A stretch of DNA of 64,000 bases, taken from NCBI RefSeq assembly GCF_004153445.1, contig NZ_SDQC01000002.1, forward strand, positions 434,001 through 498,000, written 5' to 3'. Both the position numbers and the translations under genes were made by a program. This DNA is from Allopusillimonas soli (GTDB lineage: Bacteria > Pseudomonadota > Gammaproteobacteria > Burkholderiales > Burkholderiaceae_B). The notes below the pieces were generated by a model that saw nothing but the letters and a program-made list of their open reading frames with translations, had not been told where the DNA came from and ran no database searches. Shown here in pieces: positions 53,578 through 64,000 of this stretch; position 1 is the stretch's first letter, and each line of letters begins with the position of its first letter.

Positions 53578-56500
53578 TTGAAAGCCTCGTTTAAAGCCGA
53601 CTACGCCGAACTCGACTGCCTGTCGAGTTTTTCCTTCCTGCGCGGTGCTTCGCATCCTGCGCAACTGGTTCAGCGCGCAGCCAGTCTGGGCTATCAGGCC
53701 CTGGCGCTCTGCGATGAATGCTCGCTGGCGGGCGTAGTACGCGCGCACATCGAAGCAAAGGATCTTGAGACGAAAGGCGTGCGGATCAAGCTGATCATCG
53801 GCAGTCGCTTCAACATCGACGGCATGCACCTTATTGTGTTGGCTTGCAACAAGAAAGGCTATGGCGATCTATCCGAGCTGATTACGCTGGCGCGCAGGCG
53901 CAGCACCAAAGGAAGCTACAGCCTGTCGCTGGACGACATAGCCCGGCCGCCGCCCGATCACGCACATCTTCGAGGCCTGCCAGACTGCCTGGTCATATTG
54001 CGCCCGGCCTATAACGAAGATGCCGCCACACTGTGCGTACAACTGCAGCGCCTGCAATCCATCTTCCCCGGACGTCTGTGGCTGGGTCTGGCGCTGCATC
54101 ACAGGCATGCCGACGCCAATCATCGTGCAACGCTCATGCGGGCTGGCGAACGAGCCGGCATCCGCATCGTGGCACTAGGGCAGGTCGAGATGCACCTGCG
54201 TTCCTTGCAGCCACTGCATCATGTTCTGACCGCCGTGCGCCTGAAACAGACAGTGAGCCAGTGCGGATATGCACTGCAGTCTAATGCCGAGCGTTATCTG
54301 CGCAGCCGGTTTCGACTCGCCATGATGTATCCCGTCGACGCCTTGCGGGAAACTTTGGCGATCAGTGAGCGCTGCGTATTCCGGCTGAACGATATCCGCT
54401 ATTCCTATCCGCGAGAAATCGTACCCGACGGCATGACGCCGGAAGCCTACCTGCGCCGGGAAACTTTTGCGGGCGCAATGCGCCGCTATCCGAGCGGCCT
54501 GAGCGCCAAACTCAAAAAGCAGCTTGAAGATGAGCTGGACCTGATTGTCAAACTGGAATACGAGCCCTACTTCCTGACGGTTTACGAGATTGTCAATTTT
54601 GCCCGCAGTCGCAACATACTGTGCCAGGGCCGCGGCTCGGCAGCCAATTCGGCAGTCTGTTACTGCCTTCATATTACTGAAGTCGATCCTAACGACAGCA
54701 ACGTCCTGTTTGCCCGCTTCATCAGCCTGGAACGCAAAGAGCCGCCGGATATCGATGTGGATTTTGAACATCAGCGCCGGGAAGAAGTCATCCAGCACAT
54801 TTACGGACACTATGGACGAGACCGTGCCGCGCTCACGGCCGTCGTAAGCACCTATCGCATACGCAGTGTCCTGCGCGACACCGGCAAGGCGCTCGGGCTG
54901 GATTCCGACATGGTGGATCGGGTTACCAAATCTTTTCACTATCGCGATGGCAGCCAGAGCCTACAGCAGCGCCTCGCCGAGGAAGGCTTGGATCCCGACG
55001 GGCACATCATACACATGTGGGCCAGCCTTGCCAGAAGTCTGTCGGAATTTCCCCGGCATCTGTCGCAACATCCGGGCGGTTTTGTCATCGCGGACGAAAA
55101 GCTGTGCCGCCTGGTGCCCATAGAAAACGCCGCTATGCCAAATCGTAGCGTCGTGCAGTGGAACAAGGACGATCTGGATGCCATGGGCATGCTGAAAGTG
55201 GATGTGCTGGCCCTGGGTATGCTCTCGGCCCTGCACCGCTGCCTGGACATGGTTGCGCTGCGCCGCGGGCAGCCGTTTCGAATACAGGACATCCAGCGCA
55301 ACGATGCCGCCACGTTCGCAATGATACAGCGCGCCGATACTGTAGGCGTATTTCAGATCGAATCACGTGCCCAGATGAGCATGCTGCCGCGCCTTCGACC
55401 AAGGGAATTCTACGATCTGGTCATCCAGGTGGCCATTGTACGGCCCGGCCCCATCCAGGGCGGAATGGTTCAGCCCTATCTGGAAGAGCGAGACAGACTG
55501 CGCGAAGAGGAAGCGAAAGGCAAGAGTGGCGCCACGTCCACGCAAGCCGATGAGAAGCCGAGTGAAGCCCAGGCAAGAATGCGACTGGTTCCCGCGCTGG
55601 ACAAGATTCTGAAACGCACACTGGGGGTACCGATATTTCAGGAACAAGCCATGCAAATCGCCATGGATGTCGCGGGCTTCAGCGCGGACGAAGCCGACGC
55701 GCTGCGCCGTTCCATGGCCGCATGGCAACGTCCGGGGAAGGTGCAAGATTTTCGCAACCAATTGATCCAGGGGCTTGCCGCGGCGGGCTGCGAAGATGGG
55801 TTTGCCGAAGGCCTTTACAGTCAGCTCCAGGGCTTCGCCGATTATGGCTTTCCTGAAAGCCACGCTGCCAGCTTTGCCCACCTGACCTATATCAGCGCCT
55901 GGCTCAAGCGTCACGAACCTGCGGCCTTTCTAGCAGCCTTGCTCAACTCACAGCCCATGGGTTTTTACCAGCCCGCCCAACTGGTTCAGGATGCCAGGCG
56001 TCATGGTGTACAGGTACTGCCTGTGGATGTCATGGTCAGTGATTCGGACTGCACGCTGGAATGGCCTGCGTGCAAGGCAAACACGCCAATCTGTGCCGAC
56101 GGGCACGAAGGCGTGCACACCCCGCCCTCTCCCGCTGTGCGTCTGGGGCTCAATTGCATCAAAAGCCTGTCCAAGGAGACCGCACTGCGCATCGAACAGG
56201 CTCGTCGCCAGCAGGCCTTCTCCGGCGTCCACGATCTTGCCCTGCGCGCCGGCCTGAACCGCCATGCGCTTGATGCCCTGGCCGCTGCCAATGCCCTGCA
56301 GACGCTGGCCGGGCACAGACGCCAAGCCCGCTGGCAGGCCGCAAGCCCCATGCTAGCGGGCCTGCTGCGCGCGGCACCGATTCAGGACGGCAATCAACCT
56401 GTGCTTCCAATCCCCACGGAAGCGCAGGAAATCAATGCCGACTACCAGACGCTGAGGCTGACGCTAGGCCGCCATCCTCTTGCTCTGCTTCGCGAACAGC

Positions 56501-56838
56501 TGCAAAGGCGCCGCTTCATGACGGCGGAAATACTGAATCGCGATTATCCCGATAGGCGCCTTGCCCGGGCCTGCGGCATCGTGACGGCGCGGCAGCGGCC
56601 TGGAACCGCAAAAGGCGTTGTCTTCGTGACGCTGGAAGACGAAACCGGCCATGTCAATGTTATCGTCCATGAACACCTCGCTGCCCGGCAACGCCGTGAG
56701 CTGGCGACGTCACGATTGATGGGCGTCTATGGGATATGGCAGAGCCGGCATGGCACCCCTAACCTGGTCGCTACACGATTGACGGACCTGACGCCGCTGC
56801 TGCGGGACCTGCCCACGCGCAGCCGGGATTTTCATTGA
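53578..56838 (+). CDS. dnaE2: Error-prone DNA polymerase III alpha DnaE2 (ImuC)
   Basis: A 1086-residue C-family polymerase. The PHP domain opens YAELDCLSSFSFLRGASHPAQLVQRA, a DnaE2-type sequence. The palm has the catalytic PDIDVDFE motif at about residue 400, and GRGSAANSAVCYCLHIT precedes it. The fingers and thumb regions continue to a helix-hairpin-helix, and the C-terminal OB domain has RACGIVTARQRPG ... VFVTLEDETGHVNVIV. It carries out translesion, mutagenic synthesis with ImuA and ImuB. The start is TTG with a perfect AGGAGG. Last gene of the SOS cassette. Confidence 0.96.
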   Translation: MKASFKADYAELDCLSSFSFLRGASHPAQLVQRAASLGYQALALCDECSLAGVVRAHIEAKDLETKGVRIKLIIGSRFNIDGMHLIVLACNKKGYGDLSELITLARRRSTKGSYSLSLDDIARPPPDHAHLRGLPDCLVILRPAYNEDAATLCVQLQRLQSIFPGRLWLGLALHHRHADANHRATLMRAGERAGIRIVALGQVEMHLRSLQPLHHVLTAVRLKQTVSQCGYALQSNAERYLRSRFRLAMMYPVDALRETLAISERCVFRLNDIRYSYPREIVPDGMTPEAYLRRETFAGAMRRYPSGLSAKLKKQLEDELDLIVKLEYEPYFLTVYEIVNFARSRNILCQGRGSAANSAVCYCLHITEVDPNDSNVLFARFISLERKEPPDIDVDFEHQRREEVIQHIYGHYGRDRAALTAVVSTYRIRSVLRDTGKALGLDSDMVDRVTKSFHYRDGSQSLQQRLAEEGLDPDGHIIHMWASLARSLSEFPRHLSQHPGGFVIADEKLCRLVPIENAAMPNRSVVQWNKDDLDAMGMLKVDVLALGMLSALHRCLDMVALRRGQPFRIQDIQRNDAATFAMIQRADTVGVFQIESRAQMSMLPRLRPREFYDLVIQVAIVRPGPIQGGMVQPYLEERDRLREEEAKGKSGATSTQADEKPSEAQARMRLVPALDKILKRTLGVPIFQEQAMQIAMDVAGFSADEADALRRSMAAWQRPGKVQDFRNQLIQGLAAAGCEDGFAEGLYSQLQGFADYGFPESHAASFAHLTYISAWLKRHEPAAFLAALLNSQPMGFYQPAQLVQDARRHGVQVLPVDVMVSDSDCTLEWPACKANTPICADGHEGVHTPPSPAVRLGLNCIKSLSKETALRIEQARRQQAFSGVHDLALRAGLNRHALDALAAANALQTLAGHRRQARWQAASPMLAGLLRAAPIQDGNQPVLPIPTEAQEINADYQTLRLTLGRHPLALLREQLQRRRFMTAEILNRDYPDRRLARACGIVTARQRPGTAKGVVFVTLEDETGHVNVIVHEHLAARQRRELATSRLMGVYGIWQSRHGTPNLVATRLTDLTPLLRDLPTRSRDFH

Positions 56839-59197: not shown

Positions 59198-59851
59198 ATG
59201 GCACAGTTCGCTGTTATCGGTCTTGGCCGCTTCGGTGCAGCCGCATCGCTCGAACTGATGAAACTGGGGCATTCGGTGCTCGCCGTCGACACCAGCGGCA
59301 AGCTCGTGGACAAATACGCCGACCATCTCACCCGTGCTGTCATTGCCGATGTCACAGACAGAGCCGCGCTGGAAGAGCTCGGCCTGGACAACTATGACGT
59401 GGTGCTGGTGGCCATCGGTGAGGATGTGCAGGCCAGCCTGGTATGCACAGTGCATTTGAAATCGCTGGGCATCAAGACAATCTGGGTAAAGGCTTCGTCA
59501 CATGCTCAGCATCTCATCCTGAGCAAGCTGGGCGTCGACCGCATTATCCATCCCGAAGAGGAAATGGGCATACGTGTGGCCCAGGTACTGAGCTATCCCA
59601 TGGTGAATGATTATATTTCCATCGGCAACGGCGAATTCGTGGTGGAGATCGATGTCAGCGAGAAGCTGGACGGTGTTGCCCTGGACAGCGTCCTTAAGGA
59701 AGTGGACGGCGCCATTCATGTCCTGGTCCTCAAGCGCAAGACCGAGGTCACGCCCCACCCTCCCCGCGACACGGCATTGCAGGCCAATGATGTGCTGGTT
59801 CTGCTTGGGCAACTATCCGCACTGAAGAATATCGCGCCCAAGCTGGCCTGA
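59198..59851 (+). CDS. ktrA: Potassium uptake RCK subunit (KtrA/TrkA family)
   Basis: A 217-residue cytoplasmic gating subunit. The RCK N domain has the nucleotide-binding GLGRFGAAASLELM and acidic AVDTSGKLVDKYAD (residues 7-45), and the RCK C domain starts at about 135. A single RCK unit of this length is KtrA rather than the double-unit TrkA. ATP/ADP binding opens the partner channel. An AAGGAAAA Shine-Dalgarno precedes the ATG. It lies four bases before the membrane subunit gene. Confidence 0.92.
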   Translation: MAQFAVIGLGRFGAAASLELMKLGHSVLAVDTSGKLVDKYADHLTRAVIADVTDRAALEELGLDNYDVVLVAIGEDVQASLVCTVHLKSLGIKTIWVKASSHAQHLILSKLGVDRIIHPEEEMGIRVAQVLSYPMVNDYISIGNGEFVVEIDVSEKLDGVALDSVLKEVDGAIHVLVLKRKTEVTPHPPRDTALQANDVLVLLGQLSALKNIAPKLA

Positions 59852-59855
59852 AACG

Positions 59856-61223
59856 ATGCGCAATTGGCTTCCCATTCATGGCTATCAGTCCTATATGCGT
59901 ATGCGGCGCACCGGCCTGCTGCGCGCCAGCCCGCCCAAGATATTGGCCCTGGGCTTCTTTGCCCTGATCGCCCTGGGTACATTGCTTCTTTACCTGCCCA
60001 TATCGGCGCGCCATCCGCTCGATCTGCTTTCCGCATTCTTCATGGCCTCTTCAGCCGTTACGATCACGGGTCTGGCGGTGGTCGATCCGGCCATCGATCT
60101 GACCCAATTCGGCCAGATCGTCCTGATTTCGCTGGTACAGCTGGGGGGGCTGGGCTATGTCACATTTGCCGTTGTGTCGGCCATTACGCTGGGCAAGCGC
60201 ATGAGCCTGCGCCACCAGGCGCTTGCCCTGGAGGCATTCAACCAGACCAGCGTGTCCAAGCTGCGCCAGACGGCATTCTCTGTCCTGCGCATCTCATTGG
60301 TTATCGAGATAATTGCCGCCGCCATCCTGGCGCTCTGGTGGGCCCGGGAATATCCATGGCCAACCGCAATATACCGTGGCATCTTTCACGCCATCGCAGC
60401 TTTCAATAATTCGGGCTTTTCCCTGTTTCCAAACAGCTTGGCCCAGTTTGTGAGTGACCCCGTCACCGTGCTCACCATCACCTTCGCCATCATGCTGGGC
60501 GGCCTGGGCTTCACCGTGATCAGCGATATCTGGCGCAAGCGCCGCTGGTCGCGCCTGCAGCCCTATACCCGCATCATGGTGCTTGGCACCGTCATTCTGA
60601 ACCTGGTTGGCTTTACCGCCATCTGGATACTGGAGTATGGCAATGCCAATACGCTTGGCGGATTGACCTGGGACGGACAGGCGCTGGCCGCCTGGATGCA
60701 AACGATCACGACACGCACGGCAGGTTTCAGCACCATTGATGTCAATCGGATGCACGACAGTTCAGCCCTGATCATGATGCTGCTGATGTTCATAGGCGGC
60801 GGCTCGCTTAGCCTGTCCAGCGGGATCAAGCTGGGTACCTTCATCGTGCTGCTGGCGGCGGCGCGATCCTATATATTCCAGCGCGCAGAAGTGGTGCTGC
60901 TCAAGCGCGCAATAGCACCCCAGACCGTCCAAAAGGCGCTGGCGCTCCTGCTGGTGTCGGCGGGGCTGGTCTTTGCAGGCACACTGATTATGACCATCTT
61001 CGAGAAGGCTCACTTCGTGGATATTCTGTTCGAGGTGATCGCCGCCGTCAGCACTACCGGCCTGAGCCGCGGCATCACACCTTCACTGTCCGGACCCAGC
61101 CAGCTGTTATTGGTCGCATTGATGTTTGCAGGCCGTATAGGCCCGCTGACCTTGGTATACAGCATCGCTACGCAGCAGCGCAGCCGTGTCCGGTATCCGG
61201 AAGCGGACTTCCAGGTCGGCTGA
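59856..61223 (+). CDS. ktrB: Potassium uptake membrane subunit (KtrB/TrkH family)
   Basis: A 455-residue inner-membrane K+ transporter with four M1-P-M2 repeats. The four selectivity glycines appear as ITGLAV, NNSGFSL, TRTAGFST and STTGLSRG, all intact. The first 25 residues are basic and cytoplasmic. With KtrA it gives Na+- or H+-dependent potassium uptake in osmotic adjustment. It is convergent with bioD, 31 bases away. Confidence 0.93.
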   Translation: MRNWLPIHGYQSYMRMRRTGLLRASPPKILALGFFALIALGTLLLYLPISARHPLDLLSAFFMASSAVTITGLAVVDPAIDLTQFGQIVLISLVQLGGLGYVTFAVVSAITLGKRMSLRHQALALEAFNQTSVSKLRQTAFSVLRISLVIEIIAAAILALWWAREYPWPTAIYRGIFHAIAAFNNSGFSLFPNSLAQFVSDPVTVLTITFAIMLGGLGFTVISDIWRKRRWSRLQPYTRIMVLGTVILNLVGFTAIWILEYGNANTLGGLTWDGQALAAWMQTITTRTAGFSTIDVNRMHDSSALIMMLLMFIGGGSLSLSSGIKLGTFIVLLAAARSYIFQRAEVVLLKRAIAPQTVQKALALLLVSAGLVFAGTLIMTIFEKAHFVDILFEVIAAVSTTGLSRGITPSLSGPSQLLLVALMFAGRIGPLTLVYSIATQQRSRVRYPEADFQVG

Positions 61224-61254: not shown

Positions 61255-61944
61255 TCAGGACGCAAGCAGCCCGTCCAGGCCTGGAATGGTGCTTGCCGCC
61301 TTGTCGACCGATGAGGCATCGACCCGCGCCATGGGCGCAAGCTGTGCAATCACGCGCGTCGCGCCGAAGCGTTCGATGGCTTCGCAATTGCCTGCGGATG
61401 GTGGGCCATTCAGAATCACACCCAACACCGGTACGCCGCAACTGCGCAATGCCCGCAAGCTGAGCAGCGTATGATTGATCGTGCCCAGCGTGCTGCGCGC
61501 AACCAGCACCACCGGCAAGGCGAGGTGGACTGCGAGGTCTATCATCATGGTGTGCTCGTCAATCGGCACATATAGGCCGCCAGCCCCTTCCACCACCAGT
61601 GGCATCCTCGTGACCGGGAGGCGCACACGCCTAGCATCCAGAATCACGTCCTCGAGCCTGGCTGCTGCCCACGGCGCCAGCGCGGCCTGGAGCAGACAAG
61701 CCGGCGCATGGACGCACTGTCCGCCCTCCCCGGCTGCGCCACCTCCTGGCAATGGCAAGCCCAGCAGCGAGGCAACGGTTTCAGTGTCACCGGAGGCACT
61801 GGCCAGGCCGGTCTGAAACGGCTTCCAGTAATCGGCACCCCAGGCCCGCGCCAGAATGGCCGATACGACCGTCTTGCCGACATCGGTGTCGGTGCCGGTG
61901 ACAAACACACCACGAGTTGCTTGTTTCAATACAGTAGCGCTCAT
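61255..61944 (-). CDS. bioD: Dethiobiotin synthase
   Basis: A 229-residue ATP-dependent carboxylase that closes the ureido ring of dethiobiotin from 7,8-diaminopelargonate and CO2. The P-loop GVFVTGTDTDVGKTVVSA is at residues 12-29, with YWKPFQTG (substrate Lys) and VVEGAGGLYVPI following. Its ATG overlaps the stop of the bioH-bioC fusion by four bases. Third gene of the visible biotin operon; bioA and bioB are not in the window. Confidence 0.95.
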   Translation of the reverse strand: MSATVLKQATRGVFVTGTDTDVGKTVVSAILARAWGADYWKPFQTGLASASGDTETVASLLGLPLPGGGAAGEGGQCVHAPACLLQAALAPWAAARLEDVILDARRVRLPVTRMPLVVEGAGGLYVPIDEHTMMIDLAVHLALPVVLVARSTLGTINHTLLSLRALRSCGVPVLGVILNGPPSAGNCEAIERFGATRVIAQLAPMARVDASSVDKAASTIPGLDGLLAS

Positions 61945-63377
61945 ACCTTGCTCCAGATTCCAAAGCCAATCCGATAACTGACACGGGCTCCCATCCGGTC
62001 AAACTGAGTACACACCTGTCGCAGCTGGGCACTGCTCAAGGGCCGACTGCCGGCTGCGGGCATTGTCGCGCCCACATGCCTGAGACCGCGTAAAAAAGCC
62101 AGTGCCGACCCGTGCTCCTGCACCATAACCGTTTCCACGATCTGGTTTTCGATGCCCGGCGTCAGGGCCTGGATGTCCTCGAGGCCAGGAAAGGCCGGTG
62201 TCGAAGCCGCCAGCCCCAAACGCGCATGCGCGTCGCGCCACTCCGCAAATGTGCCCCTCAAAGGCAAGGCAAAAGCGAGATGTCCGCCGGGCGTGAGCAT
62301 ACCGCCCAGGCGGCCAAGCCCGGCCCGGACGTCATCGAACCACTGTATCGCCATACTGGAGCAGATCAGGTCGTAGTCGCCTGGTTCCGCGTCAGGCTCC
62401 TGGTCCTGAAACGCCTGCGGATGCTCCCCATCCAGTATCCGAAAGCGCACTGTGCCATTCAGCGCGACGCGCTGGCTCGCCGCCCGGGTCATGGGCGGCG
62501 CAATATCGGTAATCGTCCAATCCGCCTTCCCGAAAACCCCGCCCAGAGCCCGGGTCAGCAGACCGGTGCCGCATCCCACTTCCAGAATGCGCGGATGTGG
62601 AGGAAGACGCAGCGCCGCAATATACTGCGCCAGGCGGCCCGCCACCTCGCGCTGCAAGCGCGCATGGGCATCATAGGACCCTGCCGCGGCGGCAAAGCGG
62701 CCGGAAATCGTGCGTTTCCTGTCGACCTTATCTGGCAGCCCTCGCAGAAACTCGCGGATGCGCAAGGCACACCATTGCGCATCTGACCGCGGCAGCAGAT
62801 GGCCTCCATCCACATGCCAGCGCAGGAGTGCGGGCTCGAAGGCTGCACGTGTCATAGACGGCGGCACCACTTCGTCATCCTCGCTCGCCAGCGCCAGAAG
62901 CGGCCGGCCCAGGCTGCCCAGATCGGCGCGCCGATCTTCATTCAATAGACGTAATAAATCCCGGCGCAGCGTATCCGCATTAGGTTTCCGCATGGCCGGG
63001 CCGGCGGCGCAACGCTGCCTGAATGTATCGACCACTTCGGCCGGATGCGTCTCCATGCGCCGTATCATCCGCTGAATAAGCCTCGGTGCGACGCCTTCCG
63101 GAAAAGACTGCGATGCACTGAAGCGAGGAAACCCATTGATGCTGATCCAGGCAACAGCTTGCTCAGGCGCCAGGCCCAGCGCGTGCATGAACCCAAAGGA
63201 ATGGCCTATGCATACCAGCGGCCCCTCCGGTAAATCAGGTTGCGGTGCATGGCCGTCAAAATAGCCCAGATCCAGCATCGCCTGGGGCCAGTCGGACAAG
63301 GCATCGCACAGCGGTTGCCAGAAAGCGGAATCAAATCCCCATCCGTGCACAAAGAGCAATGTGGGGCGCGCCATCAT
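61941..63377 (-). CDS. bioC: Fused pimeloyl-ACP methyl ester esterase-like/malonyl-ACP O-methyltransferase BioC
   Basis: A 478-residue two-domain protein. Residues 1-210 are an alpha/beta-hydrolase: oxyanion HGWGFDSAFW, nucleophile Ser60 in GHSFGF, acid Asp168 or 167 in ASEDDEVV, and His193 in DGGHLLPRSD. Residues 215-478 are BioC: KRTISGRFAAAAGSYDAHARLQREVA, SAM motif ILEVGCGTGLLTRAL, and DLICSSMAIQWFDD. BioC methylates malonyl-ACP to start pimelate synthesis; the esterase would remove the methyl group at the end. The start uses the ATGATG at 63377, overlapping the bioF stop. The hydrolase has GHSFG rather than the GWSLG of E. coli BioH, so BioG- or other esterase ancestry is possible. Confidence 0.92.
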   Translation of the reverse strand: MMARPTLLFVHGWGFDSAFWQPLCDALSDWPQAMLDLGYFDGHAPQPDLPEGPLVCIGHSFGFMHALGLAPEQAVAWISINGFPRFSASQSFPEGVAPRLIQRMIRRMETHPAEVVDTFRQRCAAGPAMRKPNADTLRRDLLRLLNEDRRADLGSLGRPLLALASEDDEVVPPSMTRAAFEPALLRWHVDGGHLLPRSDAQWCALRIREFLRGLPDKVDRKRTISGRFAAAAGSYDAHARLQREVAGRLAQYIAALRLPPHPRILEVGCGTGLLTRALGGVFGKADWTITDIAPPMTRAASQRVALNGTVRFRILDGEHPQAFQDQEPDAEPGDYDLICSSMAIQWFDDVRAGLGRLGGMLTPGGHLAFALPLRGTFAEWRDAHARLGLAASTPAFPGLEDIQALTPGIENQIVETVMVQEHGSALAFLRGLRHVGATMPAAGSRPLSSAQLRQVCTQFDRMGARVSYRIGFGIWSKV

Positions 63378-64000
63378 GGGAGCGGCGCGATTTTGCACAA
63401 CAGCGCTTCGCGCAGCGCATCGACAAGAAACTGGACATCCTCTCGGCTGTGGGCTGCACTCAAGGCAATGCGCAGGCGGCAGCCTCCCTTCGGAACAGTA
63501 GGCGGCCGTATGGCAGAGACAAGCACGCCTGCCTGCGCGAGATGTGCGCTCAATGCCAAAGCGCGCTGCTCGTCACCCACGAAGACAGGCACGATCTGCG
63601 AGGCCGATGCGCTGGTTTCAAGCCCCATGTCATGGAGGGCGTCACGCAGCATTCGCCCATGGCCGGCAAGCCGGCTGCGCTCGGCATCCATCCGCGGGAT
63701 CAGATCCAGAGCGGCGTCGATAGCCCCCAGTATGGCTGGTGGCAAGGCCGTGGTGTAGATGAACCCCGAGCAGCGGCTGACAAGGTAATCGCATAACGCC
63801 CGCGATCCCGCCACATAGGCGCCGAATCCACCCAGTGCCTTGCTGAAGGTGCCCATCGCAAGATCGACTCCCCCCGGCGCCAAACCCGACAGGCCCATAC
63901 CTCGGGGGCCCATGACGCCTGTTGCATGGGCCTCATCCAGGTAAAGAAAAGCGTTGTACTTGGAAGCCAGATCAGCCAGGCGCTGCACATCGCTGCAATC
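63374..64000 (-). CDS. bioF: 8-Amino-7-oxononanoate synthase (C-terminal part; runs off the window)
   Basis: The last 208 residues of BioF, a PLP enzyme that condenses pimeloyl-ACP with L-alanine. The frame is open to the window edge at 64000, so the start lies outside. YLDEAHATGVMGPRGMG contains the PLP-contact Asp and His, and the Schiff-base Lys is in MGTFSKALGG. The end RPPTVPKGGCRLRIALSAAHSREDV is standard. Its stop overlaps the next gene, so it is translationally coupled to the fusion gene. Confidence 0.94.
   Translation of the reverse strand, partial: DCSDVQRLADLASKYNAFLYLDEAHATGVMGPRGMGLSGLAPGGVDLAMGTFSKALGGFGAYVAGSRALCDYLVSRCSGFIYTTALPPAILGAIDAALDLIPRMDAERSRLAGHGRMLRDALHDMGLETSASASQIVPVFVGDEQRALALSAHLAQAGVLVSAIRPPTVPKGGCRLRIALSAAHSREDVQFLVDALREALLCKIAPLP

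Follow-up and report, generated by a model that had tools for sequence, protein, structure and literature searches.

The window, by which we mean the whole 64,000-nucleotide stretch of Allopusillimonas soli DNA analyzed here, contains a minus-strand gene (bioHC, 61941..63377) in which a short BioH-like alpha/beta-hydrolase is fused to the methyltransferase BioC. The product is very probably a bifunctional biotin-biosynthesis protein, whose N-terminal half is predicted to act as a BioH-type serine esterase on pimeloyl-ACP methyl ester and whose C-terminal half is predicted to act as BioC. A preliminary description had proposed a natural fusion of this kind in an Alcaligenaceae bioF-bioHC-bioD operon, and the open reading frame, the profile matches, the neighboring genes, and the relatives all agree with that proposal.

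Reading frame and operon of bioHC

Translation from 63377 to 61941 on the minus strand yielded 478 codons and a stop, with neither an internal stop nor a frameshift. The start is the ATG at 63377 or the neighboring ATG at 63374. The NCBIfam profiles of BioH (TIGR01738, residues 5-179) and BioC (TIGR02072, residues 227-476) matched the same chain, confirming the single 478-residue polypeptide, hydrolase first and BioC second, that had been described. The hydrolase domain comprises residues 1-214 (62736..63377, minus strand), as supported by TIGR01738, the ranking of PDB sequences, and an AF2 model; it is followed by a linker of about residues 215-223 (62709..62735, minus strand) and by the BioC malonyl-ACP O-methyltransferase domain of about residues 224-478 (61944..62708, minus strand). 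In the codon listing, from which the linker was placed, no in-frame ATG, GTG, or TTG was present between hydrolase residue 206 and BioC residue 240, and BioC thus has no plausible start of its own at the junction. The protein carries a BioH-type esterase and BioC on a single polypeptide and belongs to the BioHC type.

The genes on both sides of bioHC lie on the same strand. The 3′ part of bioF (63374..64000, minus strand; TIGR00858) runs past the end of the window, the complete gene being present in locus L099, and bioD (61255..61944, minus strand; TIGR00347, above cut-off) encodes dethiobiotin synthase. ATGA overlaps of 4 bases were found at both ends of bioHC, between the bioF stop and the first ATG of bioHC and between the bioHC stop and the bioD start. 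An ORF named bioA from reading its sequence lies divergent from bioF just outside the window, and a simple consensus search of the bioA-bioF gap gave no match to a BirA operator. The gene bioB is located on a separate contig and scored above its cut-off. The sole other match to the bioHC protein in the genome was a methyltransferase with 28% identity; bioHC is the only bioC-like gene of such strength in this genome, in which bioA, bioF, bioD, and bioB are present. On the other side of bioD, and convergent with it, two plus-strand ORFs (59198-61223) read as TrkA-/TrkH-like potassium uptake proteins, and a plus-strand ORF of 1086 amino acids (53578-56838) resembles, from its sequence, an error-prone DNA polymerase III alpha subunit of the DnaE2 type.

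The BioC half

The C-terminal half matched TIGR02072 over profile positions 1-243 of 244 with an E-value of 7.6e-44 and 147.8-150.3 bits. These scores, as well as those of the relatives (138.8-150.5 bits), missed the equivalog cut-off of 184.95 bits; despite this, TIGR02072 was the best family for this half. The SAM motif reads ILEVGCGTGLL. In a Foldseek search with the whole model, the top six matches were Acinetobacter BioC structures (8x8j/8x8i), which represent the best structural match to the C-terminal half but are of a stand-alone protein. The full-length profile match and the closest solved structure both identify this half as BioC.

The hydrolase half is closest to BioH

The catalytic triad of the hydrolase half consists of Ser60, Asp168, and His193. 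It was invariant across 60 homologues and aligned with S82/D207/H235 of E. coli BioH in 18/18 canonical and 39/39 short sequences. The preliminary description had named the same serine and histidine and had left the acid as Asp167 or Asp168; the invariance of Asp168 in the 60 homologues eliminates Asp167.

The family search that had been suggested for this half was run for BioH and BioG. The isolated half matched BioH TIGR01738 (E 1.5e-13) with 51 bits, below the equivalog cut-off of 206.95 bits, and BioG PF04301 matched neither the window protein nor any of the 60 homologues. Among these homologues, 56/60 matched TIGR01738 and 57/60 matched Abhydrolase_6. Abhydrolase_6 is the Pfam family assigned to BioH, and Abhydrolase_5 is that assigned to BioK (PMC3494674); Abhydrolase_5 was absent from the Pfam matches of the 60 homologues, in a comparison that lacked a BioK sequence as a control. 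When the PDB was searched with the 60-member profile, four BioH sequences occupied ranks 1-4 (E 2.9e-19 to 2.5e-17), with aryl esterases behind them. The AF2 model of the hydrolase half (pLDDT 96.4) showed a complete fold, and in the structural ranking BioH again occupied ranks 1-4, with Z values of 25.0-24.5 (best, 4nmw) against 23.9 for the next match; with a Z margin over aryl esterases of about 1, the structural ranking by itself is near a tie. The names BioK, BioJ, BioV, BtsA, and Cellvibrio BioHC were absent among the structural matches listed, which does not amount to their exclusion.

The nucleophile elbow is GHSxG in the hydrolase half versus GWSLG in BioH, a difference that had been noted correctly, and identity to E. 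coli BioH is low. The further suggestion of a separate esterase family did not hold up, because BioH was nearest in every test made: the profile, the AlphaFold model, the order of matches, and the operon position agree. The half is better called a member of a short BioH-like subfamily, within a direct comparison that covered BioH and BioG.

A short BioH-like clade lacking a BioH cap segment

The short hydrolases, of about 210 residues, were placed on one side of a branch comprising 39 rows with an SH-aLRT of 99. Besides Alcaligenaceae, they occur in many Alphaproteobacteria and in some further proteobacteria; in almost every locus surveyed, bioF and bioC flank the gene, including the loci of Alcaligenaceae, Novosphingobium, Magnetospirillum, Telmatospirillum, Acetobacteraceae, and Magnetococcales. 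In other Burkholderiales families, the same bioF-bioC slot is occupied by canonical BioH of about 250 residues. BioH of the canonical type (E. coli b3412; PDB 1m33 and 4etw) resembles the window hydrolase in fold, triad, and this operon place, and is its nearest match by profile and structure, whereas the window hydrolase is about 40 residues shorter and differs at the elbow.

In the short clade the triad is kept, and a cap segment of E. coli BioH is missing, so that the cap is shortened. The pattern of cap arginines 138, 142, 155, and 159 of E. coli BioH, which we take to be the ACP contacts in 4etw, was not found in the alignment of the short clade. The Arg142 position is mostly Asp or Glu, a reversal of charge, the Arg155 and Arg159 positions fall in a gap, and the Arg138 position is mostly A or G; positions 138 and 159 vary among canonical BioH as well. 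With mostly acidic residues at the Arg142 position and the Arg155 and Arg159 positions lost, the short clade is predicted to bind ACP in a mode other than that of E. coli BioH.

Fusion states among relatives

Fusion states were scored from stop-to-stop frames. This survey, which the preliminary description had called for, showed that among 64 family genomes with the cluster, the esterase and BioC were fused in 8 and separate in 53, and the esterase was absent there in 3. Allopusillimonas ginsengisoli, Pusillimonas sp. TS35, Castellaniella defragrans, C. denitrificans, and Castellaniella sp. UBA6218 carry both in a single ORF, with linkers that vary in length and sequence. The linker of C. defragrans is a long Ala-Ser/Ala-Pro repeat.

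BioC was fused to BioD in 49/64 of the family genomes with the cluster, most Achromobacter among them. Outside the family, this fusion was found in Asaia bogorensis and Gluconacetobacter azotocaptans, with a separate short esterase upstream. The esterase, BioC, and BioD were encoded in a single ORF in Pusillimonas sp. TS35 (L002:1342-3636; 764 codons, stop to stop) and in Achromobacter sp. MYb9 and UMC46, and the BioH, BioC, and BioD profiles all fell on a single chain in 2/2 triple ORFs scanned. The H+C tree required at least 2 changes for the esterase-BioC fusion and at least 6 for the BioC-BioD fusion, counts that are provisional, since this tree came from a quick search and several of the rows of interest sit on long branches.

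In the nearest relatives of MYb9 and UMC46, the bioC ATG follows the esterase stop after a short gap and in the same frame; the stretch from that stop to the ATG is missing in frame in MYb9 and UMC46, which shows a route by which such fusions originate. On balance, we favor the view that the bioH-bioC-bioD block of Alcaligenaceae fuses recurrently, with at least 2 origins of a trifunctional esterase-methyltransferase-dethiobiotin synthase (Pusillimonas TS35; Achromobacter MYb9 and UMC46) built on the short BioH clade. The triple ORF is read directly from the sequences; its three functions and an ACP recognition unlike that of E. coli BioH are predicted. In two genomes from the same genus as the window (G001 and G004), the esterase and BioC are encoded by separate genes that share a frame and are divided by a single stop. 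Both genomes lie outside the fused clade in the tree, a placement that reflects either transfer of the genes or low resolution of the tree. In G007, two stops separate the esterase from bioC.

Alternative explanations

The joining of two genes by an assembly or sequencing error would be conceivable in a group in which several relatives have adjacent same-frame genes with only one or two stops between them. The fused frame, however, recurs in independent assemblies of the five related species named above, with different linkers, and the junction of the window gene has no separate start codon. The same fusion in independent assemblies shows that the window fusion is not an artifact, and the check for a frameshift or assembly error that had been advised thus excludes one; the probability left to this explanation is negligible. 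A relic or purely structural esterase half, with demethylation by another esterase of the genome, would agree with the similar scores of other hydrolases of the window genome on the BioH profile. It would also agree with three genomes of a Castellaniella group (G165, G164, and G160), in which bioC follows bioF, the esterase half is gone, and no good match to a replacement esterase was found elsewhere in these genomes. The retention of BioC without the esterase half in these three genomes indicates that the esterase can be dispensed with or its activity provided from elsewhere. Against a relic stand the triad invariant in 60 homologues, the complete fold of the model, and the purifying selection on both halves in fused relatives, where dN/dS was 0.23 for the esterase and 0.32 for BioC in the Castellaniella fused pair, and 0.15, 0.17, and 0.07 for the esterase, BioC, and BioD, respectively, in MYb9/UMC46; these values describe the relatives rather than the window gene. 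We regard a relic as quite improbable.

Somewhat less improbable, but still unlikely, is that the esterase half derives from another family (BioG, BioK, BioJ, BioV, or BtsA type) that was joined to bioC independently of BioH. The low identity to E. coli BioH, the shorter chain, the GHSxG elbow, and the lost arginine positions would fit such an origin, but the family matches of the homologues, with BioG absent from all 60, and the lead of four BioH sequences both in the profile search of the PDB and in structural alignment, where the Z margin over aryl esterases is narrow, argue for a BioH-type esterase.

Proposed function

With a BioH-type esterase fused to BioC, the BioC half would methylate the free carboxyl of malonyl-ACP, and this cap would let two cycles of the fatty-acid synthase extend malonyl-ACP to the methyl ester of pimeloyl-ACP. 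The esterase half, through Ser60-Asp168-His193, would then remove the methyl group, and pimeloyl-ACP would pass to BioF, encoded next door. The order of BioC capping, two fatty-acid cycles, and esterase uncapping is that of the described pathway (PMC3494674, PMC9894557). The two halves would behave as independent domains connected by a linker of variable length, and the fusion may have arisen when the bioH stop and the bioC start were lost in frame, as seen in Achromobacter. Its effect is probably to fix stoichiometry, holding esterase and BioC at 1:1 where separate genes rely on translational coupling. Channeling between the halves is unlikely because the fatty-acid cycle stands between the two steps.

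How premature demethylation is avoided when opposing activities are joined had been raised as a puzzle of this protein. The question was already discussed for BioGC (PMC3494674). We suggest that demethylation at the wrong stage is probably avoided through a chain-length preference of the esterase together with fast extension, rather than through separation of the enzymes.

Comparison with known fusions

That BioG-BioC fusions are known in Bacteroidetes, as had been stated, is borne out by BioGC of Bacteroides fragilis, which was shown to stand in for bioH as well as bioC in E. coli and joins an esterase to a methyltransferase through a flexible linker (PMC3494674); its esterase differs from that of the window in being BioG (PF04301), of another family in the same clan. 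To call a BioH-like fusion to BioC in an Alcaligenaceae-type operon unusual was an overstatement, as BioHC fusions have been named for Cellvibrio japonicus (CJA_0428) and Saccharophagus degradans (Sde_3137), in which a BioH esterase and BioC likewise form a single gene within a bio operon (PMC9894557). By their description, those proteins carry reported BioH orthologues and have total lengths of 502 and 558 amino acids, whereas the window protein has a short hydrolase of about 214 amino acids and an Alcaligenaceae setting. BioHC and BioGC fusions are therefore already known as a kind, and the short BioH-like clade and the Alcaligenaceae setting are new. The double and triple fusions involving BioD are new as far as the open-access literature searched shows, in which no description of BioCD, BioHCD, or trifunctional biotin fusions was found.

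These results allow the esterase step of biotin synthesis to be re-read for Alcaligenaceae and many Alphaproteobacteria, the operonic short hydrolase of the window itself scoring far under the BioH cut-off. Close relatives in which separate, double, and triple forms occur naturally, together with the esterase-less BioC of some Castellaniella-group genomes, constitute ready test material that bears on whether esterase:methyltransferase stoichiometry matters and on the timing of demethylation.
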